NCBI GenBank assembly: GCA_030649165.1
Contig: JAUSGG010000073.1
Coordinates: forward strand, 1-33,883
Source: Armatimonadota bacterium
GTDB lineage: Bacteria > Armatimonadota > UBA5829 > JAUSEB01
Length of the DNA: 33,883 nucleotides
Reading direction: 5' to 3'
A program made the translations under genes and the position numbers. The notes under the pieces are model-generated. The model made no database searches and had not been told where the DNA came from. It saw nothing but the letters and a program-made list of their open reading frames with translations. Position 1 is the first letter of the stretch. Each line of letters begins with the position of its first letter. Shown here piece by piece: positions 10,899-31,012 of this stretch.

Positions 10899-13800
10899 GA
10901 AGTCGCGCCGACCACACCATTGACCGTGATTATGTCCCCCACTTCCACGGCCGCGTTGGAACCGATTCTGATCCCACACATGCGGCTAAGGTCTTGAGCG
11001 TAGAGGAACCCGCCCATTTGCTCCGGAGTCGCAGTGACGACCAACTCAGAAAGCCGCGCCGGAGCGCCCGACAGCCGTCGTCTGACCGCGCCGATTGAAG
11101 CAACAGCGGTGTCGGACCACTTGATGAGGACGATGTCCGACCTGCCGCGAGCCAGAACACGCCGGACAATCTGACCGCCCGCGGTCCTGAAGCAGGAGCT
11201 GATACCGGTAACCTGCACGAAGTCACCCGGCATGTAGCCGGTCGGGTCGCAGGCAACGCGAACTCCGGTGTTGGGATCGGCCCCCGTGGTCGTGCCGTCG
11301 GTCAGCGGTGAGCCGTCGTGGACGTAGAGATAATCCGGCCCGATCTGAGTCACTTTCCCCCAGACGCGAACCAGCAGGCCGATGTTGTTGATGCTTTGCG
11401 CTCCCGCGACCCCAACCTGGCCGCGCGGCGGCGGACCGGCCTGATACGAATAGGGCTTGCCGCCCAGCAGAGGGTGGTTCAAGCCAAGCGGACGAGGGTC
11501 TGAGCCACGTGCTGTGACAGTAACGACCGAGGCGTCGATCATCCGCTCTTCCCCGTAAGTCGTCATCAAACCTGAAACGTCCACCAGGTCACCGACCGCC
11601 GGCATGCCCTGGCTCCAACGGACTCCAATTCCTCCCATACGCTTCTCGTCTTGAATATAGAAGCAGTCGCCGAACACGGCGCTTACCTGTTTGCCCACGG
11701 TCTCGGCCCTGGCGCCGTCCTCGCACAGCTTGAGCGAGCATAGGGAATCAACCGTCGCTCCGCTCCCACTTAACTCAACCAGCGTCGACGGCTGTTCCGC
11801 GCCGAGCGTCGTGATCATAAGCGTCGCCTGCGAATGGCCTGCTGTCTGTGGCTGGTAAATCACGCCCAGATTTGTCTCTTGTCCCGGCGCAAGTGTGATC
11901 GGCAGCGTGGGAACGCCGTCCAGCTTGAAACCTGATACCCCGTTTGAAGATTGCGCAAGAGGCGGAGCCACAAAGACATCGTCGTAATAATAGTTGGTCT
12001 GCGTATACCACGCCGGCCCTACCAGGCCCACTCGACCGGAAAGTCGCATCGAGTCCGTGACCGTATCCACAAGATTTCCATTGATGTAGAACTGAAGCGT
12101 TGAACCGACGGCATTGACTGCCAGCGTATTGCGCGCGTCGAAGTCGCGTATGAACATCGTAGGGGTTGTGTTGCGAATATAGGCAAGGTTTCCGTTCACT
12201 TGCCTCCTGATATAGTAACCGAACTGGGTAGTATTCCCCATACGAATGCCAAACCAGTAACCGGATCCACGCCCAGCGGAGAAGTCGGAACTGTATCGGA
12301 ACGCGATGACAGGACCTTCCGCGGAACCCCCTCGCACGGTTGCGCTGTAGAAGAAGTCGCTGAAGTCGGAGCGGCTGTACGTCGCGATCACAGTGCGGTT
12401 GTAGGGAGGAACGGCCTGGTATTGTCCGTTGGACAGAGTCCAGCCCGCGTCCCAGTCCTCCTGCCAATCCTGCGCCAGACCATCGTCGAAGTTCTCCGCG
12501 TACGAGGCGAGGCGGATATCGGTTAAGGTCGCATCGCAACTCCCCGTGTTGCGAACGCGGGCTGTCTCTCTGTGGCTGGAACCCAGAGCGACTGCCCCAA
12601 ACGGGATGCGCAAGTCGTCTTGCGGCGGAAGGGAATCGTTAACGGCAATATCGCCCATACAGCACGGCGGATACGCGGACAGGTCACTAAACTGCAGCTC
12701 GTACGGAATCCCCTGCCCCTCTGACAGGCCTGCGATCCACTGATACAGGCCGGCAATCGCCAGGTAAGAGAGCCGAATTTCGCCATTGAAGAACAGCTCG
12801 ATCTGGAACGTGTTTCGGTTGCTCGGCGTGTACGCGTCAGGAATGTCAAGGTAGGTGATCGCCACCCTGTCGTCGGTCTGCTTGTACGAGACTGACCCGC
12901 CGGCCGCGGGATTAACATCGCAGAACATGCCGGAGACACGTTTCAGCCGGAAGTGGTTCGTCGGGTCACCGGCCCCGTTGGTGTCGCCCTCGTCCAAAGT
13001 GATGTATCCGTTGCTGCCGACGAAGAACGATGACCGGCTGTTTCCGTACAGGGAAACCTGCGCTCCGCCGGTGAGATTGACCTGAGCGTAGCTGTTGTCA
13101 CTAAGCGCCAGGGTTGTTCCCCCTGTTGGGTCAGTGGGTAGACTGGCTATGAGCGAAGTGCAGGCGGAATAGATATCCCGCGATCCATCAGGCGTAAATC
13201 TTACGGATGTGAACGCCAGGTCGGTAAGTGAGTATTTGATGAGGTACTTCTCGGTAAAGTAATCCCTGACCGGCACGACCTCGTAGCGATGATAGCCGGA
13301 CCCCGGATGTCTCGCCGTATTGCGGGCGACGGCCCCGTCCACCGCCTCCAGATGGTAGTCGATCACGTCACCAACTATGCCGCCGGGTATCGTGCCGTTG
13401 TACTGCTGCGAGGAACTGCTGTACGTCATTACAACCGGGGTAAAGGCTCCCCCGTTCTTGCTCCAGTACAACGTGACGCTCGCGACCCCGAGGTTGTCGG
13501 TCACTGCCGCGGAGACCGTTCTGCCCGATGTGCCGCTGGTATTAGGCAAAGGAGTGTGGGTTATGACCGGCGGCTGGTTGTCCGGCAGAAGCAAGAAGTC
13601 GGCGTCGGACACATCATTGATCGCGGGATCTTCGTTGAAAGATACCCTCACCCTATAGCGGTCCGATGAGGGACAGCCGGTAGTGTCCCAATTGTAAGAC
13701 GACGAATTGTAAACGACGGCCTCGGCGCCGGGTATACCGACCCACGTCGCTCCGCTGTCGGCGGAGTATTCGAATCGGACGGTGTCGTCCGGCTGCCAGT

Positions 13801-16800
13801 TGACGCCGCCGGAACTCCAGCGGATTTCGACCAGGTTGCCGGGCTCGTGCCACACGTTACCGTTTGGCTCGGTAATCCGCAGCGTTCTCGTGTCGCGGCA
13901 AGTGGACAAACGCTGATAGAACGGCGGATCGCCCGTAGAGGAGGTGGTGTAGGGCGGCGGATAGCCGCTTACCTCATAGCCAATCGTCGTGTCCCCAAAA
14001 ATGGTCTGAATGGGGTTCTGGTATGAGATATGGTAGGCCGTATGCGAGCCGGCGACACCGACCGCGATAATATAATACTTTCCGGGGGACAAAGCTACCG
14101 AAATCGGCCCGGAGCTGTACCAGCCGGCGCCGGTCACTGAACTCGCGACCGTGGTTTCGTGAATCTTTGCGTAGTTCCAATAGTCTGAGTCCGACTCGTA
14201 CGCGACAAACTTGAGTTCGACGGAAGAGGGAATGCTCAAATACTCCTCTATCTGCGTGAGCCGCGACTCGACCAAGCAATGAAAACGGTTCCCGCGACAG
14301 TAGGCGCCACCCGAGTCCGTGTAAGTCATTCCGCCTATAGTATCTACGCCGCAACGGGCAATTGAGAAACAGTGTGTGGACGACGGCCCGCCTGATGGCT
14401 CGACGGCGGCATTGTGGGCGGCAGAGCCGTCCGTCGCGGCGATATAGTAGCAGTACCGATCGTCAAGCAGGCTGGGACCGGGTATGTCGGCGCAATACTG
14501 GCCGTTGGAAAGGCTCATCGAGACAGCCGTGAAGGCCCCGCCGTTCTTGCTCCAATAGAGGGTTACGGAATCGACCCGGTAGTTGTCGGTCACGGCGGCG
14601 CACACCCGGTACGACCCTGTCAGATAGGGTGTATCCGCAAGCGCGGCATGGCTGATGACAGGCGCGATATTGTCCGTCGCAATCGCGAAATCGGCGTCGG
14701 AAGCGTCTTCCACCGCGGCGTCGCCGTTGTAGACGACCCTCACTCTGCACCACGTCGACTCGCCAATGCCGCTCGGCGTCCACAGGAAGGAGCCGGCGTT
14801 GTAGGGCAGGTTCCCCGCGCTCGGTATCTGCGACCACGTAGAACCGCCGTCGGTCGAATACTCGAGACGAACCGTGTTCGAGGGAAGCCAGTATGGTCCG
14901 CCGGATGTCCACCGGATTTCAACGCTTTCTCCCGGCTCAAACCATTCGCCGCCATTTGGCCCAGTAATAGTGAGCAGCCGCGGTATCGGACATGCCGACA
15001 CTCTCTGATAGTACACCGTCCCGGACTCGTTGTTTATCACAGTTGGACCGGGAGGGAAATAGCTCATATACACTCCGGCGCGAGACCGGCCGAAGGAAGT
15101 TGTTACCGGATGCCCTGGATAGCTGCCGTAAGACACGGCGGCGCCCTGCCACGCCGTACAGATCACATAGTAGCGTCCGGCTTGCATCGGAACGGAGATC
15201 GGTCCAGAGCTGTACCACGTGGCCCCGACGCCGGAATCCGCAACCACGGTCTCGTGTATCTTGTTGTAGCTGCCGCTGTAGACTGTCGATTCGTAGACGC
15301 AGTACCTGAGTTCCGTTGAAGTCGATATGTTGAAGTAATGCTCTATCTGCGTCAGCACGGAGGAGTACGTGCACTCGTACGCGTTACCCCTGGCATCTCC
15401 GGTTTCAGTACCGGAGAAAGACGCGCTTCCGATGGTGTCCGTCCTGCAGGTCGTCACGCCGAAGCAGCAGTCTTCGGACGGATCTCCCGCCGGATATGTA
15501 GCGATGTGTTGGGTCGCAGCCGTATCGCGAGCTTCTATATAATAGCAGTAGGAATCGCCGAAGTTGCCTGGACCGGGAATGTCCGCGCAGTACCCCGCGG
15601 GAGCGCCCGACGGCGTCATCGGAATAGTGTTGAAGCTGCCGCCGTTCCTTCGCCAGAACAGCGTAACCTGGCCCACTCCCACCTGGTCCGTGACTTGCGC
15701 GCATACCCGATAGGGACCGAGTTCGCTGTTGGTGTCGGCGAGTCGAGTATGCGCTATGACGGGCGGCGATGTGTCCGTTCGCACGGTAAAGTTCGCATCC
15801 GAGGCATCGCTGACCGAATCGTCGCCGTTCAGCGTCACACGGACCATGTATTGGTCCGACTCCGTATACCCCGCCGTGTTCCACGCGAACGAGCCGGCGG
15901 TGTAGGGCAGGCTTTCCGCGCCCGGTATCGGAGCCCACGTCGAGCCCCCGTCGGTCGAGTACTCCAGCCGCACGGTGTCCGAAGGTAGCCACGTCGAGCC
16001 TGTCGCCGTCCACTCTATGCTCAACGGTTGTCCAGGCTCATACCAAATGCTTCCGTTTGGCTGCGTTATGTTGAGGAACATCGTCTGCGGGCAAGCGGTA
16101 AGCCGCTGCGAGTATACGTAGGTATCGGCGTAATACGATGCCGGCGCGCTTGGTGGGTAGCCTAGCCTCCTATAGCCGCTTATTGTATGCCCGAAGTTGG
16201 TGGGCCTGGGATGACCATCGTACCCCATATAATGCGACGTCTGCGGCTGACTGGCCACCCCTATGATATAGTAATAGCCCGCAACAAGCGTGACCGAGAT
16301 CGGTCCCGAGTTATGCCAACGCGCTCCAGTTGGCGCGCCGGCAACCACTTTGGTGTACTTTGCGGTAAACGGCCCGCCGCCGGTCGACGACTCGAAGACG
16401 AAGTACGTGATCTCGCCTGAAACGCTTAAGGACAGATACTGCTCGATTCCTGCCAGCTTGGACTGTGTTTCGCAATAGTACGAGTTGCCGGACGACAAGC
16501 CGGAGGAAACATTGTAAGCGTTGATCTGTCCCACCGCCACCGGGCTGCACGAAGATATTGAAAAGCAGTGCAAAGAGCCGGGCGCCGAGCTTGGACTCCT
16601 GGTGACATACCCCGCCGCCGACGTATCCCGCGCCTCGATGTAATAGCAGTACTGGTCTTCTTGAACCGACGGGCCGGGGATTTCCGCGCGGAACTCATTG
16701 GCGACTCCCGAGGCTGCCATAGCCGTCGACGTGAACGAGCCGCCGTTCCTCCGCCAATACAGCGTCGCCGAGGCCACTCCTTTGTTATCGGTGATGACAG

Positions 16801-17269
16801 CGCGGACGCGATATGGTCCGGCTCGATTCGGCGTATTGCCAAGAGTGGTATGCGTGATAACAGGCGGACTGCTGTCGACCTGGATGGCGAAGTTGGCATC
16901 CGAGGCGTCAGAAGCGGAGCCTGAATTCGAGGTAACTCTGACCCTGTACCACAGGGAAGTCGAGCGTCCCGCGGTGTCCCACGAATACGAGGCGACGTTA
17001 TAGGGAACGTGGTTTGCGCCCTGAATTCCTCTCCAACTGGCGCCGCTATCGCTTGAATACTCCAGCTTTACCGTATTGTTGCTCTGCCAGTCGGACCCGC
17101 TGAAGCTCCAGCGGATTTGCGCCGTCTCGCCCGGCTCGAACCATTCGCCGCCGTTTGGGCTGATCAGTGTTAACGTACGAGCGGAAACGACCTGGGTACA
17201 GATTGCGACAAAAGCTGCAATCAGTGCGGCGAGAAAGATCAGCCGCGCACGACTGAGGGATACCGTCAC
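10874..17269 (-). CDS. Giant secreted modular protein: four Ig/Kre9-like modules, HYDIN-like domain with LamG-like insert, OB folds
   Basis: As read, 2,131 residues, stopping early through a one-base frameshift (intact form about 2,250). The GTG at 17269 with AAAGGTGGG upstream gives a signal peptide ending VVSA. Four tandem modules of ~366 residues start near residues 33, 400, 768 and 1131. Each begins PNG..W.EPG...I.W (Kre9/KNH-like), then an SDASDANF link and SPPVI.H..L..T with a VTLYW..NGG.F Ig-like domain. Modules 1-3 continue into a Cys-containing domain with SGPISV and YYVI motifs; the fourth lacks it. Then come an FVGSNGYITL domain, a choice-of-anchor-D/HYDIN-like domain split by a LamG-like jelly roll (~1590-1768), and OB-fold pairs (GDLVDVSG, GDFVQVTG, GDIITVNG). 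No PEP-CTERM tag or membrane anchor is visible. A cell-surface or matrix role is inferred. Confidence 0.75.
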   Translation of the reverse strand: MTVSLSRARLIFLAALIAAFVAICTQVVSARTLTLISPNGGEWFEPGETAQIRWSFSGSDWQSNNTVKLEYSSDSGASWRGIQGANHVPYNVASYSWDTAGRSTSLWYRVRVTSNSGSASDASDANFAIQVDSSPPVITHTTLGNTPNRAGPYRVRAVITDNKGVASATLYWRRNGGSFTSTAMAASGVANEFRAEIPGPSVQEDQYCYYIEARDTSAAGYVTRSPSSAPGSLHCFSISSCSPVAVGQINAYNVSSGLSSGNSYYCETQSKLAGIEQYLSLSVSGEITYFVFESSTGGGPFTAKYTKVVAGAPTGARWHNSGPISVTLVAGYYYIIGVASQPQTSHYMGYDGHPRPTNFGHTISGYRRLGYPPSAPASYYADTYVYSQRLTACPQTMFLNITQPNGSIWYEPGQPLSIEWTATGSTWLPSDTVRLEYSTDGGSTWAPIPGAESLPYTAGSFAWNTAGYTESDQYMVRVTLNGDDSVSDASDANFTVRTDTSPPVIAHTRLADTNSELGPYRVCAQVTDQVGVGQVTLFWRRNGGSFNTIPMTPSGAPAGYCADIPGPGNFGDSYCYYIEARDTAATQHIATYPAGDPSEDCCFGVTTCRTDTIGSASFSGTETGDARGNAYECTYSSVLTQIEHYFNISTSTELRYCVYESTVYSGSYNKIHETVVADSGVGATWYSSGPISVPMQAGRYYVICTAWQGAAVSYGSYPGHPVTTSFGRSRAGVYMSYFPPGPTVINNESGTVYYQRVSACPIPRLLTITGPNGGEWFEPGESVEIRWTSGGPYWLPSNTVRLEYSTDGGSTWSQIPSAGNLPYNAGSFLWTPSGIGESTWCRVRVVYNGDAAVEDASDADFAIATDNIAPVISHAALADTPYLTGSYRVCAAVTDNYRVDSVTLYWSKNGGAFTAVSMSLSNGQYCADIPGPSLLDDRYCYYIAATDGSAAHNAAVEPSGGPSSTHCFSIARCGVDTIGGMTYTDSGGAYCRGNRFHCLVESRLTQIEEYLSIPSSVELKFVAYESDSDYWNYAKIHETTVASSVTGAGWYSSGPISVALSPGKYYIIAVGVAGSHTAYHISYQNPIQTIFGDTTIGYEVSGYPPPYTTSSTGDPPFYQRLSTCRDTRTLRITEPNGNVWHEPGNLVEIRWSSGGVNWQPDDTVRFEYSADSGATWVGIPGAEAVVYNSSSYNWDTTGCPSSDRYRVRVSFNEDPAINDVSDADFLLLPDNQPPVITHTPLPNTSGTSGRTVSAAVTDNLGVASVTLYWSKNGGAFTPVVMTYSSSSQQYNGTIPGGIVGDVIDYHLEAVDGAVARNTARHPGSGYHRYEVVPVRDYFTEKYLIKYSLTDLAFTSVRFTPDGSRDIYSACTSLIASLPTDPTGGTTLALSDNSYAQVNLTGGAQVSLYGNSRSSFFVGSNGYITLDEGDTNGAGDPTNHFRLKRVSGMFCDVNPAAGGSVSYKQTDDRVAITYLDIPDAYTPSNRNTFQIELFFNGEIRLSYLAIAGLYQWIAGLSEGQGIPYELQFSDLSAYPPCCMGDIAVNDSLPPQDDLRIPFGAVALGSSHRETARVRNTGSCDATLTDIRLASYAENFDDGLAQDWQEDWDAGWTLSNGQYQAVPPYNRTVIATYSRSDFSDFFYSATVRGGSAEGPVIAFRYSSDFSAGRGSGYWFGIRMGNTTQFGYYIRRQVNGNLAYIRNTTPTMFIRDFDARNTLAVNAVGSTLQFYINGNLVDTVTDSMRLSGRVGLVGPAWYTQTNYYYDDVFVAPPLAQSSNGVSGFKLDGVPTLPITLAPGQETNLGVIYQPQTAGHSQATLMITTLGAEQPSTLVELSGSGATVDSLCSLKLCEDGARAETVGKQVSAVFGDCFYIQDEKRMGGIGVRWSQGMPAVGDLVDVSGLMTTYGEERMIDASVVTVTARGSDPRPLGLNHPLLGGKPYSYQAGPPPRGQVGVAGAQSINNIGLLVRVWGKVTQIGPDYLYVHDGSPLTDGTTTGADPNTGVRVACDPTGYMPGDFVQVTGISSCFRTAGGQIVRRVLARGRSDIVLIKWSDTAVASIGAVRRRLSGAPARLSELVVTATPEQMGGFLYAQDLSRMCGIRIGSNAAVEVGDIITVNGVVGATSGRRSGTG

Positions 17270-17372
17270 GGCGCCCACCTTTCGCTCAAGGTTTTGGTCA
17301 GCGCGTCTCCACCACACGCGCAGGCAACCTCGCGAATCGTCAATTCGCCTGCTCGCCAGCGAACACATAACA

Positions 17373-18948: not shown

Positions 18949-21114
18949 TTAGTACCTGTGCGACCAGGCGAAGCGAATGAGGCCAAATCGACCGCTCTGA
19001 CCGGAATCGATACCATCTTCCCAGTCAGAGACCGAGAAGTCAACCCGGAGTTCCTCCTTGGGCGAGATCTCATAGCCGAAACCGAGAGTATACCTGCGCT
19101 CGGTTATATCGACCGGAGTCCAGACGGGACCGACGGGAAGGTCTGCCCCCGCGCCAGTGGTCAAATCGATCAGAGTCCTGCCTTCAGACTTGGCATTGGT
19201 GAACCGGCCGTACACGCGCCACTTCGGACGAAAGGCGTACGCCAGTCCCAAGCTCCAAACGTGGTCCTCAGCGTCGTACGGAGCAAAGTCCGGGAACAGG
19301 TTAGGCAGCCGGCTGGCGGCGCTCGCGCTCGAGCCGATCACGAAGAGCGTTCTGGCCTCCGCGTCCACAAGTCCGTAGTTCACGTCCAGAGTGAGCTTGG
19401 GTGTAGGCGCGTACCAAGCCCCTATGGTCGTGGTCGTCATATTGTTCCGGAAGTTTTGTCCCGCCGCCGCTATTCGCAGCTCTTGGTACTCGGTCGCGGT
19501 GAGAATGTCGCTCGAACCATCTGCGAAGGTCACGCTGACCTGGCTTTCGTCGACACCGGGAGTAAGAGGGTCATCAACGGCCAAAACCTCCGTTGCGGTG
19601 GGAACCGGGTCCACCCGGATTTCGTCGTTATGCTCCTTCCAGCGGTTGTAGTTTGCGAACAGCGCGAAGTTGTCGCGCGCGAGGTAGGTCGCTTCCAAGT
19701 TCAGGCTGTCGCGGTCTGACGCAGCCCCGCCGAACTCGGGGCCGTCGATATTCCACTTCTCCCATTTGCCCGACATGCTGAGCTTCGCGCTGGGGTAATA
19801 GCGCGCGCCGAGGCGCCAGATGTCCGAGTTGGTTGACTCGCTCGTGAACGGGTGCTCGAATCCATCGTCTTCGGGATCGTCGTGCAGCGGATGAATCGGG
19901 CTTTGGTCGCGGTCGATATCCCGGTTCTCGAACGACGCGCTCAGAAACGCCCGACGGATGCCGGTGTATGAGGCGTCGAGGGACAGGGCCGATTCATCAC
20001 GCGAAGTCGCCTGGTTGTCGGCAAAGCCGAGGGCGTCCAGAACGGGCGGAACCAGGTTCGTTAGCTGGTACTTGCGATATCGCCCGGTCAGACTAAGCGA
20101 GTTCGTTGCAAGGAACGACAGGGCGACATTGGTAGAGTCGATATCCACCGCGTTCGTCCGTGCAACCGGAAGTCCCGTTAATGTGCTCAGAGTCGAGGTC
20201 CGGTTCTCTCGATTGCGCGAAATCTGAACGCCTGTGAAGTACAGCCTGTCGGTAATCCTGCTGCGCGCCTTCACGGCGTGCACGTCCGTCTCGGTGTCTG
20301 GCTGGATGATCCTGCTCAACGCCGGGAACGGCGGCTGAAAGGCGCCTGTCACAGGCGTGCCCGCGTCATCGCTGAACCGAATGTGTGAGAAACGATAGCT
20401 CAACGCGGACGATTTCCCCAGCGTCAGGTCGGTCCCCACCGATCCTTCGTTTGTGTCCCTGTCGATGAGCAACGCTCCGCCGTACCTGGTTCTGTTAACT
20501 ATCCCCGCTGGGAAAGACTCACCCGGCAACAGAGTCCGTGAGCGGAAAAGGACTTGCCGAGACCCGTCCTCATGCTCCTGCCACCATGTTCCGAGAAGTC
20601 GAACCTTTTGCCCCTTCCACGGCGTCAGACTCAGCGCGGCGTCATTCACCCGCCGGTCGATTTGGAACTGTGTGGTATTCGGTATCAGGTCGATGAAGAA
20701 GTCTCCGTCCGCCGGCGGTGTGCCCGCCGGTGTTCCCGCGAGAAACGGGTTGATAGCGGGAATTCTGTCCAGCCGGTGTAACAACGCGTCCGTTCCCAGA
20801 TGCAGGCGTATCGCGTTCTCCAGACTCAGGTCAAGATCCGCCTTTTCGTCCTGGATGATCAGATCCCGAATCCCGAGCGAATAGGCGAGCCCACCCGTGT
20901 AACCATAGGTGTCGAGCTGTTCTATCCCAAGATCGAACAACCTGCCGTCGTACTCCCGGACCCAAGACTGGTTGCCGGAATCATCGTGGTGGTACACGCC
21001 CATGCGAAGGTCCGTGACATCGTCCTGGCCGTTCAACATATCCACCTGGGCAACGGCAGGAACACAAGTCGTGAGCGCAATTGCGCAAAGCAAACAGATG
21101 ATATGCAATTTCAT
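18949..21114 (-). CDS. MtrB/PioB-like outer-membrane beta-barrel
   Basis: A 721-residue outer-membrane protein. A signal peptide (MKLHIICLLCAIALTTCVPAVAQ) precedes a short N-terminal region, then a long series of alternating amphipathic strands with aromatic girdle residues (KVRLLGTWWQEH, ALSYRFSHIRFSD, LSLTGRYRKYQLT, FALFANYNRWKEH, WRVYGRFTNAKSE). The chain ends with an aromatic residue (RFAWSHRY), the outer-membrane insertion signal. Size and pairing with a decaheme cytochrome 29 bases upstream match the MtrB/PioB family, whose barrel sheaths the cytochrome to carry electrons across the outer membrane. The N-terminal CxxC seen in some MtrB proteins is absent. The ATG at 21114 follows AGGAGG 10 bases upstream. 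Family assignment rests on context plus barrel features. Confidence 0.78.
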   Translation of the reverse strand: MKLHIICLLCAIALTTCVPAVAQVDMLNGQDDVTDLRMGVYHHDDSGNQSWVREYDGRLFDLGIEQLDTYGYTGGLAYSLGIRDLIIQDEKADLDLSLENAIRLHLGTDALLHRLDRIPAINPFLAGTPAGTPPADGDFFIDLIPNTTQFQIDRRVNDAALSLTPWKGQKVRLLGTWWQEHEDGSRQVLFRSRTLLPGESFPAGIVNRTRYGGALLIDRDTNEGSVGTDLTLGKSSALSYRFSHIRFSDDAGTPVTGAFQPPFPALSRIIQPDTETDVHAVKARSRITDRLYFTGVQISRNRENRTSTLSTLTGLPVARTNAVDIDSTNVALSFLATNSLSLTGRYRKYQLTNLVPPVLDALGFADNQATSRDESALSLDASYTGIRRAFLSASFENRDIDRDQSPIHPLHDDPEDDGFEHPFTSESTNSDIWRLGARYYPSAKLSMSGKWEKWNIDGPEFGGAASDRDSLNLEATYLARDNFALFANYNRWKEHNDEIRVDPVPTATEVLAVDDPLTPGVDESQVSVTFADGSSDILTATEYQELRIAAAGQNFRNNMTTTTIGAWYAPTPKLTLDVNYGLVDAEARTLFVIGSSASAASRLPNLFPDFAPYDAEDHVWSLGLAYAFRPKWRVYGRFTNAKSEGRTLIDLTTGAGADLPVGPVWTPVDITERRYTLGFGYEISPKEELRVDFSVSDWEDGIDSGQSGRFGLIRFAWSHRY

Positions 21115-21143: not shown

Positions 21144-22265
21144 TTAGTAATGCAACGCCTGATGCCGGTCAGACCCGTGGATCGAGCCGTGGCAGTCGGT
21201 GCATTCGGTGTAATATCTGGAAAAAGTCGTGGGCGCGCCGAGAGCGCCGCTGCTGCTGTGAGGGCCGGCGTGGCACTTGAGACACAGGAACGGCTGACTC
21301 TGGGTCAGCAGCTTGTTCTGGACAGACCCGTGAGGCTTATGGCAGATACTGCAATCCTCATTGACGGGCGGGTGCTCGAAAGTGAAAGGACCGACCTTTT
21401 CGGCGTGGCATCTGGCGCAAGTGTCCTGCACGGATTCCTCGCGCAGCATATTGTTCGGTCCGCCGTGCGGATTGTGGCAGTCGCTGCACTTCATCTTTCC
21501 CTCGACTAACGGGTGATGTGAAGGCATGCGCGACTGCGCCTGCTGAGCTTTGTGGCAGTTGTAGCACATAAACGGCTCAGCGGCTTTGTGATATTCGGTC
21601 TCAGCTCCTTTAGCGTCGGCCTCAAGCTTCGCTCGCTTCTCCTGCAGCTTCGCGACTTGCGCAAGAGCTTCCGTCTTCTCGGAGATGCCCTCGTCTGCGA
21701 TGCCCGATCTCAACTGCGCTTCTTTGATTGTCTTGTTCAACCCCTCGACAGCTATCGTGGCGCTCTGCATGTCGGTGAGGAGAGTTCGAGCGTCCAGGCT
21801 GTGGGGATTGTGGCAGTTCATACAGGTGAGCTTAGCGCGAGCGTGTCTGCCGGTCGCCCACAGCATGGTCTTCTCCTGCGTGTGGCACTTGAGGCAAACC
21901 GCCGACGACTTCTCACTATTGAGCTTGCTAAGATTGACGATGCCCACGCCGCGTCCGCCTCCGGCGGCGACGTGCGCGCTGCCCGGCCCATGACAGGCTT
22001 CGCAGCCCTTGCGCGACGCTTCAGTATTGAAAAGCGTCTTCCTGTGGATAGTCAGAGCCCATTTCTTTGCTACGTCGGCGTGGCAGGTGGCGCAGGCCTC
22101 AGAACCCACGTACTGGGGCTGTTCCTCCGCCGTTGAAGGCTTCGGGGAATAGCACACCCATAGAGCTGCGATCGCCGCCGACAGAAGCACGGTGTACACC
22201 GATCTGTTTTTCATCAATAGCCCGCGCCAGTTGACCCTTGGTTGACACGTGCGCAACCGGGTCAC
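21144..22265 (-). CDS. Decaheme c-type cytochrome, MtrA/DmsE family, with coiled-coil insert
   Basis: A 373-residue exported multiheme cytochrome with exactly ten CXXCH heme sites, beginning at about residues 58, 88, 124, 148, 234, 260, 283, 305, 328 and 355 (CATCH, CEACH, CLKCH, CMNCH, CYNCH, CSDCH, CARCH, CSICH, CLKCH, CTDCH). Ten hemes and a barrel partner downstream are the MtrA/DmsE hallmark: a periplasmic wire inserted in the barrel. Other heme gaps are about 22-36 residues, but sites 4 and 5 are 86 apart. The extra stretch (~157-227) is charged, Lys/Glu/Ala-rich and helical, with heptad-like LNKTIKEAQL and LAQVAKLQEKRAKLEADAK. The GTG at 22265 is preferred because AAAGGAGGTGA lies 5 bases upstream. 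An ATG at 22214 directly before the hydrophobic signal helix is an alternative. No outer-surface MtrC-like partner is in the window. Confidence 0.87.
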   Translation of the reverse strand: MTRLRTCQPRVNWRGLLMKNRSVYTVLLSAAIAALWVCYSPKPSTAEEQPQYVGSEACATCHADVAKKWALTIHRKTLFNTEASRKGCEACHGPGSAHVAAGGGRGVGIVNLSKLNSEKSSAVCLKCHTQEKTMLWATGRHARAKLTCMNCHNPHSLDARTLLTDMQSATIAVEGLNKTIKEAQLRSGIADEGISEKTEALAQVAKLQEKRAKLEADAKGAETEYHKAAEPFMCYNCHKAQQAQSRMPSHHPLVEGKMKCSDCHNPHGGPNNMLREESVQDTCARCHAEKVGPFTFEHPPVNEDCSICHKPHGSVQNKLLTQSQPFLCLKCHAGPHSSSGALGAPTTFSRYYTECTDCHGSIHGSDRHQALHY

Positions 22266-22458
22266 TGGCTTCACCTCCTTTAAGGCTAGCTGGATCTGAT
22301 CAGGAAACGTCCAGCCTTTTCTCATCCCTGAACGGAGCTCACTGCGCAAGCTCGGCGCTGGTGTTATGTTTTCCCGTTTTGGCGTGATGCGAATCGCTTA
22401 GCGCTCACCTCCTTTCGGTCGCGCCAAACGGGATCAAGCTTTGTGCCATGTCGCACAA
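22266..22458 (-). promoter_or_regulatory. Structured leader of the cytochrome operon with two perfect ribosome sites
   Basis: From the predicted start near 22458 the leader RNA is about 190 nt. An 11-bp long-range stem pairs CCCGTTTGGCG (22432-22422) with CGCCAAAACGGG (22384-22373, one bulged A). It encloses AAAGGAGGTGAG (22415-22404), a perfect Shine-Dalgarno with no usable ATG after it. A small GAGCT/AGCTC hairpin follows (22353-22335). A hairpin at 22318-22282 (AAGG/CCTT and CTGGA/TCCAG) then directly precedes a second AAAGGAGGTGA at 22281-22271, which serves the GTG at 22265. Translational control by ribosome decoy or ligand is possible; it fits no riboswitch class I can recognise. Confidence 0.5.
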
Positions 22459-22921: not shown

Positions 22922-25051
22922 TTACTTGAACTGCGGGAGGATGATTCCTCTGAGGATTATCTGCTGGCAGAAGACGAATATGAGCAGGGTCGGTATGGAG
23001 GCCAGGACAAGCGCCGCCATCATCATCGACGAGTCGCCGCCCATGGAGAACTGGAAGAGGTAGACCATGAGGGTCCACATCTCCTCTTTCCGGCAGACAA
23101 GGTACGCCCACATAAACCCACCGTAGGCGGCGGTGAACGAACCCAGCGCGTTGATTGCAAGGATCGGCTTAATCAGCGGGATCGCCACATTCCACAACTG
23201 CCTCAGCTCCCCTGCCCCATCGATCCTCGCCGCTTCGAACAGCTCCTCCGGCAGGCTGTCGAAGAAGCTCTTGAGGATGAAAATGCCGAAGCCGTTGGCA
23301 AGTCCGGGCAGCACCAGCGCCCAATACGTATTGAACAGGTGGAGGTGCTTGAGCATCAGGAAGCTTGGCAGGGCGGCCACGTCGCCGGGAAACGCCATGG
23401 TCGCGATCAGGAACAGCAGTACTTTGTAGGTATAAGGCAGCCGGAATCTGGACAAGACAAACGCCGCCATCGGCGTGACTGTCAGGTGTGTTCCCACCGT
23501 CATCAGCACCAGGATGAGGGTGTTCAACGCGGCACGTCCCTTTAGGGCCAGGTAGTTGAACACCGCCTTGAAGTTCCGGGTGGCGTAGATCCAGCGAAGC
23601 TGTCTGTGCTGATCGAAAACCTCGATGAAGTCGGTCTCTCTGTAAGGCGGGAATATAGTCTCCAGGGACCGTGCGCCGAGTCCCTGGGCTCTGTTTATCC
23701 CGTCGAGCGATCCGTACTTCTTGGCAAGGAACTCTCTGTAGAGCTGTTCGGAATCTATGATCTGAATATGCTGAATGGGAAGCTTGGTCTTGACGAAGGT
23801 CGCCCATTCGATCGTCCGCTGGAACTTCGGCGTCAATTCCCGATGCGCCAGTTTCCGGAACTTCCTGACGGAGTCCACGGTCGGAAGCGTCTCAATCCCG
23901 CCTACCTCAGCCTCGTGCACAGGCAGATAGGCGGGCAGTTCGATCGGGAATAAGTCCGGGGCATCAAACGATGAGAAACTCGTCCTCCACGCTTTGTTGA
24001 CCTTCTCAATAGTCCCGTATCTCCTCCTGAGATGATCCACGAAAAGGTCTTGGCCGCCTGTTGCGCGCAGGTAACGAGCAGACCACATCGTTCGCACGAA
24101 TTCTTCCCACGCTTCGGCTTCGGCCGGATTCAAGGGTACTGAGCCCGGCAGAGGGACCTCGCGCAACTTGGTCGCGACGATGCCGTACGTCTTGCGCAGA
24201 GCCGGAATCGTCACCTTTTCGCCATCTTCCGGGGCCAGATCGATTCGTTTCAGAAGAAGCCGCTGGTAGTCGAACCTACCGGCCAACGTTTGCCGCCACT
24301 CCGGTTTCGTACGTGCTTTGAAAGCATACCAGTCCATTTGTCGCAGAAGCACCGGCTCGTCAAGCTTTCCAGTGTTGAGTTTCTCATCTATCGAGCCGCT
24401 GGCCCACCAGTCGGGTCTCAGGAGAATATCCATGCCCGGTCCCGGGGATGAGCCGAGTAAAGAGCCCGGGTAGAACGATGTAAAGGTGTCGCCGTAAGCG
24501 TTGTTCAGTGCGTCGATGTTGCGGTAGCGCTTCTCCATCAACTCACCGAACGCGTGGAAGGGCTCGCCGGGCAGCATCGGCCCCCCCAGCAAACAAAGGT
24601 TGAAGTAGTTAGGGCTGAGGGTCTTGCGAAATTCGTTGTAGTCGTCTACTCGGCGCCTGATCTTCGGGTCGCGCCCGTTGAACCGGGGCGCTTTAGTGTA
24701 TTTCCCTTTGGCGTTCTGCGCGTGCCAGCCGCCGATGTCCCTGGCAGTGTAGAGTTCCTCGCCGTACCGGTCGCTCAACTCCTGGAGGGCCCAGTTGATC
24801 ATCCCGTCGGCTCTGATTCCCGAATTATACTTCTCGGCCACGTACTTGCGGTGCAGCAGACCGTCGTCCGTAAAATACTTCGGCAACACGCGCATGTCGT
24901 CGAAGTCGACGGCCGACGTAAACCCCGACGATACCATCAACGCAAACGGGTACACGACGGTGAGCGCGCCGGCCGCGACCACCAGGTAGAGCAGAAATAA
25001 TACCAGCCTTAGTTTCCAGCCTCGCCGTCCTACTACCGGTATGATTGGCAT
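22922..25051 (-). CDS. MalG-type sugar ABC permease with ~440-residue extracytoplasmic insertion
   Basis: A 709-residue inner-membrane permease of the CUT1 family, about 430 residues longer than normal MalG (~280). One N-terminal helix (~15-40, ending YPFALMVSSGF as in MalG) is followed by residues ~45-480 outside the membrane. The usual MalG core then resumes (LNTLILVLMTVGTHLTVTPMAAFVLSRFR) with the cytoplasmic EAA loop EAARIDGAGELRQLWNVAIP that docks the ATPase. The insert repeats a pattern at ~172-194 (KRYRNIDALNNAYGDTFTSF), ~343-362 (RRYGTIEKVNKAWRTSFSSF) and ~444-465 (KKYGSLDGIN...). This resembles the RYG..E.LN.AWGT.F segment of GH42-type beta-galactosidases. The ATG at 25051 follows CAGGAG. 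It lies 12 bases after the fused binding protein-permease gene: same operon, same importer. Confidence 0.87.
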   Translation of the reverse strand: MPIIPVVGRRGWKLRLVLFLLYLVVAAGALTVVYPFALMVSSGFTSAVDFDDMRVLPKYFTDDGLLHRKYVAEKYNSGIRADGMINWALQELSDRYGEELYTARDIGGWHAQNAKGKYTKAPRFNGRDPKIRRRVDDYNEFRKTLSPNYFNLCLLGGPMLPGEPFHAFGELMEKRYRNIDALNNAYGDTFTSFYPGSLLGSSPGPGMDILLRPDWWASGSIDEKLNTGKLDEPVLLRQMDWYAFKARTKPEWRQTLAGRFDYQRLLLKRIDLAPEDGEKVTIPALRKTYGIVATKLREVPLPGSVPLNPAEAEAWEEFVRTMWSARYLRATGGQDLFVDHLRRRYGTIEKVNKAWRTSFSSFDAPDLFPIELPAYLPVHEAEVGGIETLPTVDSVRKFRKLAHRELTPKFQRTIEWATFVKTKLPIQHIQIIDSEQLYREFLAKKYGSLDGINRAQGLGARSLETIFPPYRETDFIEVFDQHRQLRWIYATRNFKAVFNYLALKGRAALNTLILVLMTVGTHLTVTPMAAFVLSRFRLPYTYKVLLFLIATMAFPGDVAALPSFLMLKHLHLFNTYWALVLPGLANGFGIFILKSFFDSLPEELFEAARIDGAGELRQLWNVAIPLIKPILAINALGSFTAAYGGFMWAYLVCRKEEMWTLMVYLFQFSMGGDSSMMMAALVLASIPTLLIFVFCQQIILRGIILPQFK

Positions 25052-25063
25052 AGCGTTCTCCTG

Positions 25064-27814
25064 CTACTCCCCCTGCTCCGCCGTTGAGAACTTCATCCTC
25101 GCAAAGATCCGCATCTGCATTACGGCAAATCCAACGAGCAGGGACGCCAGCATCCACGCAATGGCCGTAGACTGGCCGTAGTTCGCAAGAACATAACTCT
25201 GGTACCAGAGCTCCAGCCCCATGACGTGAGTCGCATGATCGGGTCCGCCGCCTGTCATGATCAGGATGCCCCCCATGCCGTGAAACGCTCCAATGAAGGC
25301 CCCTACGAAGTTGATCAGGACAAGAGGGAATATGGCAGGCAGCGTCACGTGCCAGGCCTTCTGGAATATCCCCGCCCCGTCCAGGTCCGCTGCGTCATAC
25401 TGCTCCTCGGGAACAGCTTTCAGTGCGGCAAGATAGATGATACAACCCGGCCCCATGCCGCCCCAGACGCCAGGCAGTATGCACGCCGCCATCGCCAGCC
25501 TTGGATTGGTGAGCCACTGCTGGGCGTGCAGAAGCGGGACATGCCACGGTATGTGAAGCAGTTGCAGAAGCTCGTTGATGTGTGTGATGATGTTGGGGTT
25601 CAGACTGAGCAAGACCCTGTTCATCAGCCCCAATTCCGTCGGGTCGTAGAACCTCTTCCACAGGAGTATCGTCACGATCCCCGTTGTCAGCGCCGGCAGA
25701 TAGTAGAGGGTTCTGAACAAGGTCTTGCCTTTTGGAATCTCGGACAAGAGCAAAGCCAGTGTTATGGGAAGCGCAAAGCCCATTGCCAAGCTCAGACCCA
25801 CAAATATGAAAGTGTTCTTCCACGCAAGCCAGAACAGCGGCCTCATCGCCACCCTGATGAAGTTCTCCAGGCCCACCCACTCGCTGCCGCCCATTATGTG
25901 CACGTTCATGAAAGCCATCACTGAGCCCCAGGCCACTGGGATATACTGCCAGAGAAAGACCGAGAGAATCGCAGGCGCCAGGAACAACCACGCGAGAACG
26001 TGCTTCGACTTGGGAAGCTTCTTTCTGTAGACCTTTTCCCGTTCGGCCGCCAGATCCTCATTCCCCCTCAACTGCGCCCTCAGCATGAACGCGCCGCCGC
26101 CTACCATTATCGCAGCCAGCAATACGACGACCGCAAACGCAATCTTCTCGTTGCGGGCCCATTCCTGAGGCGTCGGTGTGTAGAGGTACGAGCGGCTTAC
26201 GACATTCTGGACCTTCCTCAGTTGCCCTTCGATGTCATGCTTGCCCGGCCTTATAAGGTCTCTGCACGGTCCATCCATCTCAAGCAGGATAGACGGCAGG
26301 CCAGGGGGGCTTGGAAGAACGCGAGCATTGGCAAATATCTGTTTGTAGGCGATCGCCCAATCTTCCGGCACCTGGTCGATCACCTTCTGTGGGTAGCCAT
26401 ACTGTCTAAGAATATCGGGGTTGACATACCGAGCGACCCCGTTATCGACGAAGTATTTCGTCTTCTCCCTCTCGCCCTCGTCACCGCACATATAGGAAAT
26501 ATACTCCCAGGCGGCGGCGGTGATCTTCCTGTTGAGGATCTCGTCGGGTCCGACCGCGCCGAAGGCCTTCATCGCTATGCCGCGATAGTCCGAAGCGACC
26601 GGCAGAGTGTCTCCCGGCGCCAGAATAGGATCCTGCTTGGTGGGTTCTCTGCCGTCGGTCGTGTAGTGTATCTCAACACCCGGTGTGGTTTTCAGCGTGG
26701 ATTTAATGCCGAAGACCGTGCCGCCGATCCTGGCAACGTATCTTCCTTCCGGCCCGGGGTACCTGGGGAAAGGCACGATGCCGAACTTCAGAGGGTCCTT
26801 GTAGACGCGCTCGTTGAAAACGCTCCACAGGGTATTGCCCGACATGGCGACAATTCCCTCTTCCATAAGATCGCGTTGATCGAGCGTCTGCGCCGCTCTC
26901 TGTCCGCTGCCCTGGGTGGCGGCGCGAGACATCTCGGTGATCCCTTTGATGCGCCTTCCCTTGGGATCGGTCCATTCGCCCCAGCACAGCTTCTCCATGA
27001 ACTTCATAGAGCGTACGACCGGCTCTGAGGTTAGCCGCGTCTCCCACGTTCCATCGGGGTGTTTCACGGCCCAATCTCCGCCCGCCATCGGCGGAAGTCC
27101 CTGCAAGAACCATCCGTACAGGTAAACGTCCATCGCCCAATGTTTGGGGTAATGCGTTTCCAGATCGATGTCCGCATCGTACAGCTTCTTCCCGAACTCC
27201 CACAACTCGTCCCAGTCGCGCGGCCCTCTCGTCAGACCGACTTCACGAAACCGCTTCCTGTTGTAGAGCATGCAGTCCGCGCCTACACAAAACGGGAGCG
27301 CGTAGATGTGCTTCTTGCCGTCCGGGCCAACGGCGCTGCACAGATCCCGCACCGGACCCGTCAGCCGATACTTCGCCTGAGGCCAACTGGCGACGTAATC
27401 GTCCAAAGGCATCAGAAAGCCTTCGTGCACCGCCTTGGTGATCTCTTCGGACTGCAGGCTGATCACGTCCTCAGCCGCGTCACCTACCATGGACATAGTC
27501 AGGCTGGCGCCCGCGACGTCCATCCCGGGCGGCAGCTTCAGGCTGGTCAACATTTTGAGCTGAATGTGAGGGCGGTCCTGGAAGAACTTCTTGTTGATAA
27601 CGGAGTTGGCCCGCCATTCGATCTTCGGTGAGCCTTCCGATATCCATAGACTCGTGAACCGCAGCGGCACTTTTTCTATCTTCTTACCGGCTGCCTGGGA
27701 CGGTTTCGGAACGTTCACATGCTTCTTGGAACAGGATGTGAGCAGTACGGAGAGACTTGCGACGACCAGCGCTAAGCAAACGCCGCGGAGGGATCTGGAA
27801 CTGAAACACAACAT
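25064..27814 (-). CDS. Fused solute-binding lipoprotein and MalF-type permease
   Basis: A 916-residue fusion. Residues 1-28 are a lipoprotein signal peptide with lipobox LTSC (Cys28). Residues ~48-550 are a family 1 (MalE-like) sugar-binding domain (WISEGSPKIEW, DVISLQSEEITKAVHEGFLMPLDDYV, YALPFCVGADCMLYNRKRF, EGIVAMSGNTLW). Inside it, ~379-418, is a chitobiase/hexosaminidase C-terminal-like insert (VEIHYTTDGREPTKQDP). A membrane helix (~556-580) and charged linker lead to a complete MalF-like permease (~605-910) with the EAA loop EEQYDAADLDGAGIFQKAWH. If the Cys28 lipid anchor is used, the binding domain is tethered twice. The start at 27814 is chosen because the promoter (27878-27907) lies inside the longer open frame and the signal peptide begins here. 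No ATPase is adjacent, so a shared MsmX/UgpC-like ATPase is inferred. Confidence 0.88.
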   Translation of the reverse strand: MLCFSSRSLRGVCLALVVASLSVLLTSCSKKHVNVPKPSQAAGKKIEKVPLRFTSLWISEGSPKIEWRANSVINKKFFQDRPHIQLKMLTSLKLPPGMDVAGASLTMSMVGDAAEDVISLQSEEITKAVHEGFLMPLDDYVASWPQAKYRLTGPVRDLCSAVGPDGKKHIYALPFCVGADCMLYNRKRFREVGLTRGPRDWDELWEFGKKLYDADIDLETHYPKHWAMDVYLYGWFLQGLPPMAGGDWAVKHPDGTWETRLTSEPVVRSMKFMEKLCWGEWTDPKGRRIKGITEMSRAATQGSGQRAAQTLDQRDLMEEGIVAMSGNTLWSVFNERVYKDPLKFGIVPFPRYPGPEGRYVARIGGTVFGIKSTLKTTPGVEIHYTTDGREPTKQDPILAPGDTLPVASDYRGIAMKAFGAVGPDEILNRKITAAAWEYISYMCGDEGEREKTKYFVDNGVARYVNPDILRQYGYPQKVIDQVPEDWAIAYKQIFANARVLPSPPGLPSILLEMDGPCRDLIRPGKHDIEGQLRKVQNVVSRSYLYTPTPQEWARNEKIAFAVVVLLAAIMVGGGAFMLRAQLRGNEDLAAEREKVYRKKLPKSKHVLAWLFLAPAILSVFLWQYIPVAWGSVMAFMNVHIMGGSEWVGLENFIRVAMRPLFWLAWKNTFIFVGLSLAMGFALPITLALLLSEIPKGKTLFRTLYYLPALTTGIVTILLWKRFYDPTELGLMNRVLLSLNPNIITHINELLQLLHIPWHVPLLHAQQWLTNPRLAMAACILPGVWGGMGPGCIIYLAALKAVPEEQYDAADLDGAGIFQKAWHVTLPAIFPLVLINFVGAFIGAFHGMGGILIMTGGGPDHATHVMGLELWYQSYVLANYGQSTAIAWMLASLLVGFAVMQMRIFARMKFSTAEQGE

Positions 27815-27877
27815 GCCTTTGCCTGACTCCTGCTCGCCGGATCCTGGCCGTACCGGTCCTGGTGTTGGACCTGAGCC

Positions 27878-27907
27878 ATTATAGCGTCCATCCGGGGATA
27901 AGGTCAA
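27878..27907 (-). promoter_or_regulatory. Sigma70-type promoter of the ABC importer operon
   Basis: TTGACC (27907-27902 on -), 18 bp, then a perfect TATAAT (27883-27878). The predicted start is about 57 bases upstream of the ATG at 27814. Confidence 0.8.
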
Positions 27908-27944
27908 CAATTGGCACGGAATTATGTACCAAAATCCGGCTGGA

Positions 27945-28165: not shown

Positions 28166-29536
28166 TCAGAACTCCGTAACGCCCGTGAAGCGGAAGTCGC
28201 GAATCTTTATCGAGGGCGCGCAGGCTACTCCGGGCATAGTCCGCTCCAGTCCCACGGGACGAATATCCGACCCGACCAGCTCAACATTGGAGAGAGCTTT
28301 AAGGATACTTTCGGTAAAGCGCAGGTTCTTCACCGGCGAGGTAATTCTGCCGTCTTCTATAAGGAAAGTCCCATCCCTGGTCATGCCTGTGAGGATCGTT
28401 TGGATGGGATGCAGGACGTTCACGTAGTGGAAGCGACTCACGAGAATCCCGCGTTTCGTGCTGGCAATCATATCTTCCAAGCTAGAGGTTCCGGGACGTA
28501 GAAACAGGTTGGCCGGCATGGGGCCGTACAGGCCGGTCAAGTCCGTCGCATGTCCGGTTGACTCCTTGCCCTCCTTTTTTGCGGTGTGGGAATCGTAAAC
28601 GACGGCTTCTGCGACGCCATCCACAATGAGGTCCACGCGCTGTTTCGGCGTTCCTTCACGGTCGAACGGCCTGACAATCCCCATAGGGTCAAGGCCGTCG
28701 TCCCAAATCGTGACCGCCTCGCTGCAGATACGTCGACCAAACTTGCCGCACACGAAACTCCGGCCTTCCTGCACCGATAGCGCGCCTAGTCCAAGAATGC
28801 CTAAGAATTCGATCAATTCTGCGACAGCATACGGCAGAAGGACAACGTCATACTCGCCTGGCTCGATCCCGATAGGCCCTCTGCTCGCCGCCGCTCTGTC
28901 GGTGGCTTCCGCGCCCACCCTTGAAGGGCTGATGCTGGCGGCGTCCATTGCTGTTCCGGTTGCCGCGCCAAAACCGGAGCCGGCCGTAATCACTGTTGAG
29001 AGAAACGCGGAAGTGTGATTCACGTAAGCGTCGACACCAAGGGAATTGGCAACAGCGGATTCTCCTACAACCGTCATGAATGAGCCGGCAGCTTCCGCTT
29101 CTCTCTGGTCCGCTTCCGCGATAACCGCGCCGACGGCCGCCGCCCGCTCCTCCGGGCCGAACGCCGCGGTCGACTCGTGGAATGTTTCGGGATAGTATCC
29201 AATTGGCTTGGGCTCGGGCAGCGACACGAAATCGGGATTGTCCCGCTGGTTTTGCGCGACCTCGACAGCCTCGGACACCACGGCGAACACCGACCTCTCG
29301 TCCAGCGAACTCGTCAATGCGAAACCGATTCTCTTGCCGATAACCGCCTTTACTGCCAGACAAGCCGTCCGCTCCGCCACATTCTGATGGATGGCGGAAC
29401 GGGCGAACCTGGTCAGGCCCGAACGCTTCAAGGAAAGACTTACCTGCGTCTGCTCAGCCTCTGAGCGCTCCAAAGCAGACTGCAATATCTCCGTAATGCG
29501 ACCTCTTCCCATCAACTGAGCGTTTTCCGCGATCAC
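28166..29536 (-). CDS. tldE: TldE/PmbA family metalloprotease partner subunit
   Basis: A 456-residue TldD/PmbA family protein, the non-catalytic half of the cytosolic TldD/TldE heterodimer that degrades or matures unfolded or modified peptides. It lacks the HExxxH zinc motif, as TldE should. It keeps family landmarks: an N-terminal domain ending around NPDFVSLPEP, then SGFGAATGTAMDAASI, GEYDVVLLPYAVAELIEFLG and the C-terminal DGTFLIEDGRITSPVKNLRFTES. The GTG at 29536 is chosen because it overlaps the tldD stop (GTGA) and has AGGAG 7 bases upstream, giving translational coupling; an ATG at 29512 is the alternative. The pair is an operon, tldD then tldE. Confidence 0.9.
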   Translation of the reverse strand: MIAENAQLMGRGRITEILQSALERSEAEQTQVSLSLKRSGLTRFARSAIHQNVAERTACLAVKAVIGKRIGFALTSSLDERSVFAVVSEAVEVAQNQRDNPDFVSLPEPKPIGYYPETFHESTAAFGPEERAAAVGAVIAEADQREAEAAGSFMTVVGESAVANSLGVDAYVNHTSAFLSTVITAGSGFGAATGTAMDAASISPSRVGAEATDRAAASRGPIGIEPGEYDVVLLPYAVAELIEFLGILGLGALSVQEGRSFVCGKFGRRICSEAVTIWDDGLDPMGIVRPFDREGTPKQRVDLIVDGVAEAVVYDSHTAKKEGKESTGHATDLTGLYGPMPANLFLRPGTSSLEDMIASTKRGILVSRFHYVNVLHPIQTILTGMTRDGTFLIEDGRITSPVKNLRFTESILKALSNVELVGSDIRPVGLERTMPGVACAPSIKIRDFRFTGVTEF

Positions 29537-30975
29537 TTGACGACTCCTATCCGCACGTTCCGAAAACGAGAAGGGGCGACTCCGTGACCTACACGCGCGA
29601 TTTGCATCGGCTCTCCCTTGCCGCAGTTCGGCACACCCCAAAGCCGCCATTCATCTTCTCCCGCAACGGCGTCACAGCTTCGCCAGAAGTCGTAGGTAAT
29701 CCCGGTGTAGGTTGGACTTCTAAACATGCGTCCGAGCGAGCCGTCCACGATCTCATAGGCCACTTCCGTACCGAACTGGAAATTCAGCCGCTTGTCGTCG
29801 ATGCTCCACGATTTCACCGAAGACGCATACAGGCCGTGCTTTGTGTCCGCCAATATCTCATCCAGAGTCCAATCTCCCGGAAGAAGATTGATGTTGGTCA
29901 TCCGTATTAGCGGAATGCTGTTCCAGCCGTCGGCCCTCATTGCCCCGCTGCTCGGGCGGCCGATCTTCGGCGCGGTTTCCCGCGACGTCAGATAACCGTT
30001 GAAAATACCCTCATTCACTATGTCTACGCGCTGCGCCGGAACGCCCTCATCATCAAAGAAGAAGCTGCCCAGACCGCCCGGAATCGTAGCATCGGCGACG
30101 ATGTTCACGGCTTCCGAGCCGTAACGGAAACTCCCCAGCTTATCGGTTGTCAGAAAGCTCGTGCCGGCAAAAGACGATTCCATTCCGAGGACTCTGTCCA
30201 GTTCGATAGGATGGCCGCACGATTCGTGCACTTGAAGCGCCAGCATGGAGCTTTCCAGGACAAGGTCCGTCGTCTCCGACGGACAGAGCGGCGCCTCAAG
30301 TAACTGCGCGGCGTCCCTGGCCGTTTCCTCCGCGTGCCCGGTGAGGTCTTGCGCTTCTACAAACTCGTAGCCCGCGGCGGCAAAATCACCTCCGAACGGC
30401 GCCGGATAAGACCTGCGCTGAATCTCCTCCCCACCTATTGCCGTTGCCAGTATCCCGGCGCCGCTCTGCACGTTCACCTGCTCGATATAGGAGCCTTCGC
30501 TGCTCGCGAACACCTGTTCCTGACGCCAGAAATCCATGGACGATTCGGCGATGGCGATCTTGGGATTCTGCCGCATTATCGAATCTGCTTCGAGGAGGAC
30601 ATTAATCTTGTCGGCGAGAGGCACGTCGAAGGGGTCGATCTTGAACTGTGACTCGAACCGGCCAGTCGCCGGCTCCACGTCCGCAAGCGTCACGTCTTCT
30701 TTCTTGTGTGTGGAGCTCGCGCGCGCTATTCGGACCGCGAGGTCAGCAACTTCCATACCTTCGTCGTCGTTGACAACGAAGCTGCATGCGAATCCCCAGG
30801 CGCCCCCGACGAGAGCCCTCACTCCGAAACCATAGTCGGTGGCAGAGGCAAGTTGTTCCACCTTCCCCGTCTTGACTTCGATCGACTCAGACGCGCGTCT
30901 GACCACGCGCACATCCGCATAAGTGGCGCCCTGACTCGCCGCTCGCTCCAGAATCTTCCTGCAGAAGTCCTCCAA
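29533..30975 (-). CDS. tldD: TldD family zinc metalloprotease
   Basis: A 480-residue catalytic subunit of TldD/TldE. The zinc motif HESCGH (HExxxH) sits at about residues 250-255 in LQVHESCGHPIELDR, and the third-ligand region NCGKGEP lies near the C-terminus. Family motifs YADVRVVRR, SAIGGEEIQ-like ATAIGGEEIQRRSYP and DDEGVPAQR are present. TTG 30975 is preferred: AGGGAGG lies 7-8 bases upstream, and a -10 box at 31013-31018 would start transcription near 31006. That is too close for the earlier TTG at 31002, which would add nine residues. TldD/E complexes act in peptide antibiotic maturation and general proteolysis; no peptide precursor is visible here. Confidence 0.9.
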   Translation of the reverse strand: MEDFCRKILERAASQGATYADVRVVRRASESIEVKTGKVEQLASATDYGFGVRALVGGAWGFACSFVVNDDEGMEVADLAVRIARASSTHKKEDVTLADVEPATGRFESQFKIDPFDVPLADKINVLLEADSIMRQNPKIAIAESSMDFWRQEQVFASSEGSYIEQVNVQSGAGILATAIGGEEIQRRSYPAPFGGDFAAAGYEFVEAQDLTGHAEETARDAAQLLEAPLCPSETTDLVLESSMLALQVHESCGHPIELDRVLGMESSFAGTSFLTTDKLGSFRYGSEAVNIVADATIPGGLGSFFFDDEGVPAQRVDIVNEGIFNGYLTSRETAPKIGRPSSGAMRADGWNSIPLIRMTNINLLPGDWTLDEILADTKHGLYASSVKSWSIDDKRLNFQFGTEVAYEIVDGSLGRMFRSPTYTGITYDFWRSCDAVAGEDEWRLWGVPNCGKGEPMQIARVGHGVAPSRFRNVRIGVVK

Positions 30976-31012
30976 GACGCCGACCTCCCTGTCTTCGCAC
31001 AACCCGTCGCCT

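Follow-up and report, generated by a model that had tools for sequence, protein, structure and literature searches.

A five-unit repeat array related to a glycosidase arm in the first periplasmic loop of a MalG-type permease, a possible dock for a tethered binding protein

The window (the whole stretch of DNA that was analysed, 33,883 nucleotides; all of its features described here lie on the minus strand) encodes a MalG-type permease with a repeat-array insert, an open reading frame of 709 amino acids with an ATG start (22922..25051). Its neighbour, 12 nt upstream of malG, is a 948-residue protein in which Pfam recognizes a solute-binding protein (SBP) fused to a MalF-type permease (25064..27910). 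Directly after malG follow a multi-CXXCH cytochrome gene (21144-22349) and then an MtrB/PioB-like porin gene (18949-21114), and in a genome of the same family similar-sized genes (413 and 675 aa) follow malG in the same order (locus L049). Elsewhere in the window there are an open reading frame of 2164 aa (10874-17368) and two adjacent TldD/PmbA-type metallopeptidase genes with overlapping ends (28166-29650 and 29533-31002).

Judged by sequence, neither the permease core nor the binding protein departs from the ordinary MalFG type. The membrane core of MalG (residues 499-709; 22925..23557; delimited by Pfam and PDB profile matches) contains the domain BPD_transp_1 at residues 543-701 (E 2.3e-14, 54 bits vs a cut-off of 26.4), which is found in 29/29 homologues of this long MalG. 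The EAA loop for the ATPase, EAARIDGAGELRQLW, is located at residues 606-620, and E606, D611, G612, A613 and E615 are invariant in the 29 homologues. Profile searches of the PDB return AlgM2 (5e-24), MalG (3e-19) and SugB, with AlgM2 and MalG as the closest solved proteins; the best NCBIfam matches, UgpE and MalG, are both far under their cut-offs. By the OB_MalK domain, the genome encodes a single MalK-type ATPase, unlinked to the malG locus, which could serve all such importers of the genome.

In the fusion protein, SBP_bac_1 is matched at residues 137-396 and BPD_transp_1 at 731-931. The likely start is M33, a lipobox-like LLTSC occurs at residue 60, and hydropathy places a transmembrane helix at 590-608, between the SBP and the MalF core. 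Compared with AlgM1 13-224, this core (residues ~639-942; 25085..25996) has no large insert, and its alignment to E. coli MalF starts only at residue 360, i.e., it has no loop of the MalF-P2 type. Inside the SBP part, residues 396-426 resemble a chitobiase C-terminus (CHB_HEX_C_1, E 1.5e-5), and a 43-residue piece of this region shares 52% identity with another large open reading frame of the genome (G000:C5).

What sets this MalG apart is its first periplasmic loop (P1). Six hydrophobic helices are predicted from hydropathy, one before the insert and five regions after it: helix 1 spans residues 16-34 (24950..25006) and the next begins near residue 501 (~501-530), which means that about 450 residues are inserted at P1. 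According to an alignment of the 29 homologues, this extracytoplasmic insert comprises residues 45-498 (454 aa; 23558..24919); the first-pass annotation had counted roughly 440 extra residues. Residues 1-15 contain four K/R and no D/E; this positively charged N-terminus indicates that the insert faces outward, and from the topology it presumably lies outside the membrane.

The first-pass annotation took the insert for one giant outer domain in which a motif recurs at three places. The three copies are real: KRYRNIDALNNA at residue 174, RRYGTIEKVNKA at 343 and KKYGSLDGINRA at 444. Not one of 20,000 shuffled inserts had even a single match to the motif pattern, and chance as its origin was rejected; since the pattern was written after the sequence had been seen, more weight is given to the independent evidence from a unit profile and from separate alignments. 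The profile, derived from the 29 homologues, locates not three but five units in the window protein, at residues 66-154, 164-273, 282-334, 333-433 and 433-487, each of which matches the unit HMM at E 8e-7 to 2e-16. Unit 1 (residues ~62-158; 24578..24868; E 8e-7) is diverged, and unit 2 (~160-254; 24290..24574; E 2.5e-14) has an expanded linker. Unit 3 (256-334; 24050..24286; E 2e-13) was also modelled with AlphaFold2 (see below), unit 4 (~333-431; 23759..24055; E 2e-16) includes residues 334-376, where Pfam GH42 is matched best, and unit 5 (~432-498; 23558..23758; E 2.4e-11) runs into the second transmembrane helix. The unit size is ~70 aa, longer where the linker is expanded. After iteration, the unit HMM gave 130 unit matches at E<0.05 in the 29 inserts, compared to 2 in 145 shuffled inserts. 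Most inserts consist of five units, and the number drops in those that are shortest and most diverged; insert length ranges from 248 to 460 aa among the 29 homologues. Because the HMM had been iterated on the same sequences, alignments of units 1-5 were built separately for each position and compared: every pair matches by hhalign (E 5e-8 to 4e-17; reversed-alignment controls 3e-3 or worse), with unit boundaries still taken from the unit HMM. Five mutually matching units identify the insert as a tandem repeat array rather than a single domain.

Disorder of the insert had been named as an outcome that would speak against the first-pass proposal, but the array folds at least at the level of the unit. 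With an alignment of 13 in-register rows, AlphaFold2 confidently predicts unit 3 as three helices (pLDDT 84.3, pTM 0.71); a prediction of full-length MalG from a three-sequence alignment reached a pLDDT of 33 and was discarded. A Foldseek search of the unit model against the PDB returned nothing significant (the top entry, the beta-amylase 3VOC at E 4.8, is not evidence), so that the link to glycoside hydrolase family 42 (GH42) rests on sequence profiles. In the window MalG, Pfam GH42 (PF02449) is matched above its cut-off (E 1.3e-7, 31.8 bits vs 21), limited to profile positions 151-193 of 376. Among the 29 homologues, 21 have a Pfam GH42 match (best E 4.5e-20) and 10 a GH14 match; one of them (L019) contains four separate GH42 stretches. 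Conversely, the unit profile finds GH42 beta-galactosidases at the top of the PDB (1kwg_A 154-218, E 4.6e-7, over 58 of 75 positions), followed by many other GH42 entries, GH14 beta-amylase, GH167 and others. By profile comparison, the resemblance between the unit and GH42 is genuine homology, and the GH42-like segment proposed in the first-pass annotation holds to this extent, although the segment is neither catalytic nor complete.

The Pfam match above the cut-off could suggest a glycosidase domain in the permease, functional or degraded, whose hydrolysis is coupled to uptake. However, in the homologues inspected it is always the same part of GH42 that is matched, repeatedly, namely profile positions 135-210 of 376. 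BiBga42A, a GH42 enzyme from bifidobacteria, uses Glu-160 as its acid/base and Glu-318 as its nucleophile (PMC10688820). Counted along the profile alignment, the matched segment starts ~12 residues past the acid/base, and it includes neither this residue nor the nucleophile. The MalG insert has neither the catalytic TIM barrel of GH42 nor a segment with its acid/base or nucleophile, and is filled by five helical units. A glycosidase in any state is thus very improbable, and an active one was rejected, as the catalytic parts are absent.

The segment that is retained corresponds to a distinct part of the enzyme. In the BiBga42A trimer, the substrate site of one subunit is completed by Trp-200 and Phe-221 of its neighbour, two residues located at the tips of long helices (PMC10688820), and by our own residue counting and the position relative to the acid/base, the matched segment spans the equivalents of both. 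The GH42 arm (1KWG 154-218; the Trp-200/Phe-221 region of BiBga42A) and the MalG unit share a helix, YG, a helix ending in LNxAxGT, SF, P, and a helix with DxxxF. Whereas the GH42 enzyme has one copy of the arm, the permease has five in tandem, with the Trp-bearing tip deleted and with neither barrel nor catalytic residues. The unit profile aligns to GH42 with a deletion of five residues exactly at this tip, and an FWSQ-type tip with its sugar-contacting Trp was found in 0/130 units. The equivalent segment of GH14 beta-amylase (1B90 200-234; 3VOC 190-232, E 7e-6) shows the same motif and differs from the MalG unit in the same respects, the match being shorter. The MalG unit thus retains the framework of the intersubunit arm but not its sugar contact. 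With no catalytic residue and the Trp loop deleted, the insert is not a glycosidase.

The loss of this contact also bears on glycan binding by the loop itself, which the first-pass annotation had suggested. The array might act like a carbohydrate-binding module (CBM) that concentrates oligosaccharides, or holds long chains while the SBP takes the end. The GH42 relative of the unit is a sugar enzyme, sugar-related genes lie near several homologues, and the insert contains 11 Trp and 21 Tyr, all of which would fit such a role. Yet the only sugar-contacting GH42 loop that can be checked is missing from all units, most conserved positions hold residues typical of a protein core or of helix caps (F, L, Y, G, N, P), and no CBM profile was matched by Pfam in the window protein and the 29 homologues. 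None of the observations demonstrates glycan binding by the array, which is considered unlikely.

The long MalG is widely distributed. It was detected (E<1e-50) in 32/61 related genomes from many families of the phylum, and in 6/99 sampled Planctomycetota genomes, the starting genome included. The homologue set comprised the related genomes and two named records, one from Armatimonadetes (L038) and one from Planctomycetota (L039). In a tree of the membrane core, L038 is nested within the rows of the 61-genome phylum (support 83/76 and 89/82), and this placement implies that the phylum is probably Armatimonadota. A scan of viral contigs yielded no relatives of the long MalG. The insert is conserved in homologues; its absence from close relatives, the other outcome named as damaging to the first-pass proposal, was not what was found. 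The genome is a draft of 266 contigs, and an unrelated gene could have been joined to malG by misassembly; this is refuted by independent homologues, i.e., by the same architecture in the related genomes and in Planctomycetota, including a full-length copy of 66% identity in a genome of the same family, and its probability is negligible.

The pairing of the long MalG with a fused binding protein, pointed out in the first-pass annotation, turned out to be the rule. Of the 61 related genomes, 30 encode both the long MalG and the fusion subfamily, 2 the long MalG only, none the fusion subfamily only, and 28 neither; the remaining one (G017) has fragments of both. As the genomes are related to one another, the tally is given without a p-value. 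In both genomes with the long MalG only (G023, G024), malG is located at the end of a small contig. In 21/23 loci with enough sequence the fusion gene is the immediate neighbour of malG, mostly on its upstream side, and in the two unlinked exceptions (L065, L067) as well as in other split genomes the same fusion subfamily is encoded elsewhere; the genes are unlinked in G037, G038, G039 and G051. A second pair of long MalG (592 aa) and SBP-MalF fusion (827 aa) exists in the same genome as the window (L048; G000:C37:5448-9713), with an array that is shorter and more diverged than that of the window. SBP-MalF fusions of other subfamilies in this genome are paired with array-free MalG; tethering alone does not require the array.

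To test the docking idea, the divergence of the insert, the SBP and both membrane domains was compared over 21 linked pairs. Insert and SBP divergence are correlated when both membrane domains are controlled for (partial r 0.48, permutation p 0.0005), but insert and MalF divergence are not (r 0.16, p 0.14). However, the MalG core also co-varies with the SBP (partial r 0.44, p 0.001), and the test thus discriminates weakly: it supports docking and does not settle it. As to the substrate, genes for LacI, GH106, GH42M (a GH42 trimerisation-domain protein), GFO/IDH and PIG-L proteins near homologues fit a carbohydrate. Neighbourhoods vary between homologues, and the malG gene of the window adjoins the cytochrome and porin genes, not glycan genes.

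The array could also serve passively, as a spacer or anchor by which the SBP is raised or oriented, or by which the importer is tied to the peptidoglycan or the outer membrane. Spacers often consist of repeats whose number and linker length vary, and the insert does vary in length among the homologues. On the other hand, the array has to loop back, since the same protein enters the membrane at each of its ends; the unit number is mostly five; no peptidoglycan- or outer membrane-binding domain was matched by Pfam in the 29 homologues; and the divergence of the insert tracks that of the SBP after control for the membrane domains. A passive role is thus rather doubtful.

Docking of the binding domain, as the first-pass annotation had also proposed, is the reading preferred here. 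For E. coli MalE, contacts with the P2 loop of MalF and the P1 loop of MalG are reported (Daus et al., 2007, as cited in PMC3150292). With an array in MalG-P1, a MalF that lacks P2 and an SBP tethered to this MalF, the array as a dock is the economical reading, and a chain that occurs across the phylum almost always together with an SBP-fused partner is probably a built-in docking arm. The locus would accordingly encode a type I (MalFG-family) importer, in which the SBP is tethered to MalF and the P1 loop of MalG carries five putative three-helix modules. These modules share ancestry with the helical arm that projects from the GH42 barrel to the neighbouring subunit. The array would most likely flank the mouth of the translocation pathway and cradle the tethered SBP, holding or positioning it, and may take over the role of the MalF-P2 loop. 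We give an even chance to a carbohydrate ABC importer of this kind, with its MalF-tethered SBP docked on a non-catalytic five-unit array; in this, both the docking on the binding protein and the import of carbohydrate are inferred.

Compared to known systems, MalFGK2-MalE of E. coli and AlgM1M2 of Sphingomonas share the MalG core with BPD_transp_1 and EAA loop, the MalF partner, a MalE-type SBP and a separate MalK-type ATPase in the genome; what differs here are the ~450 residues of repeats in MalG-P1, the fusion of the SBP to MalF and the lack of MalF-P2. Tethered binding domains are already known: in importers of the GlnPQ type, the SBP is covalently linked to a permease subunit, but these belong to the amino-acid family, and no repeat array is mentioned for their other permease subunit (PMC8025302). 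For the window protein and the 29 homologues, Pfam gives separate permease, GH42 and GH14 matches only. Among the open-licence papers searched (on Armatimonadota, Planctomycetota and GH-permease fusions), none was found to describe an importer that carries this array or combines the two changes; the first-pass annotation likewise knew of no described system that combines them.

The Pfam GH42 match on these permeases could cause their misannotation as beta-galactosidases. MalFGK2 serves as the model for type I importers, and a central question is in what way the binding protein is held in the course of the transport cycle. Tentatively, with somewhat less than even confidence, we propose a new carbohydrate importer architecture in much of one phylum: a five-fold array, derived from an intersubunit arm that is also present in a glycosidase, would permanently cradle a MalF-tethered SBP and, in place of MalF-P2, combine capture, docking and translocation in one two-subunit machine. 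If true, a piece of an enzyme would have been turned into a repeat scaffold, and a widespread natural variant, with a tethered SBP and an array on the opposite subunit, would offer a system for trapping and imaging the step at which the binding protein is held.
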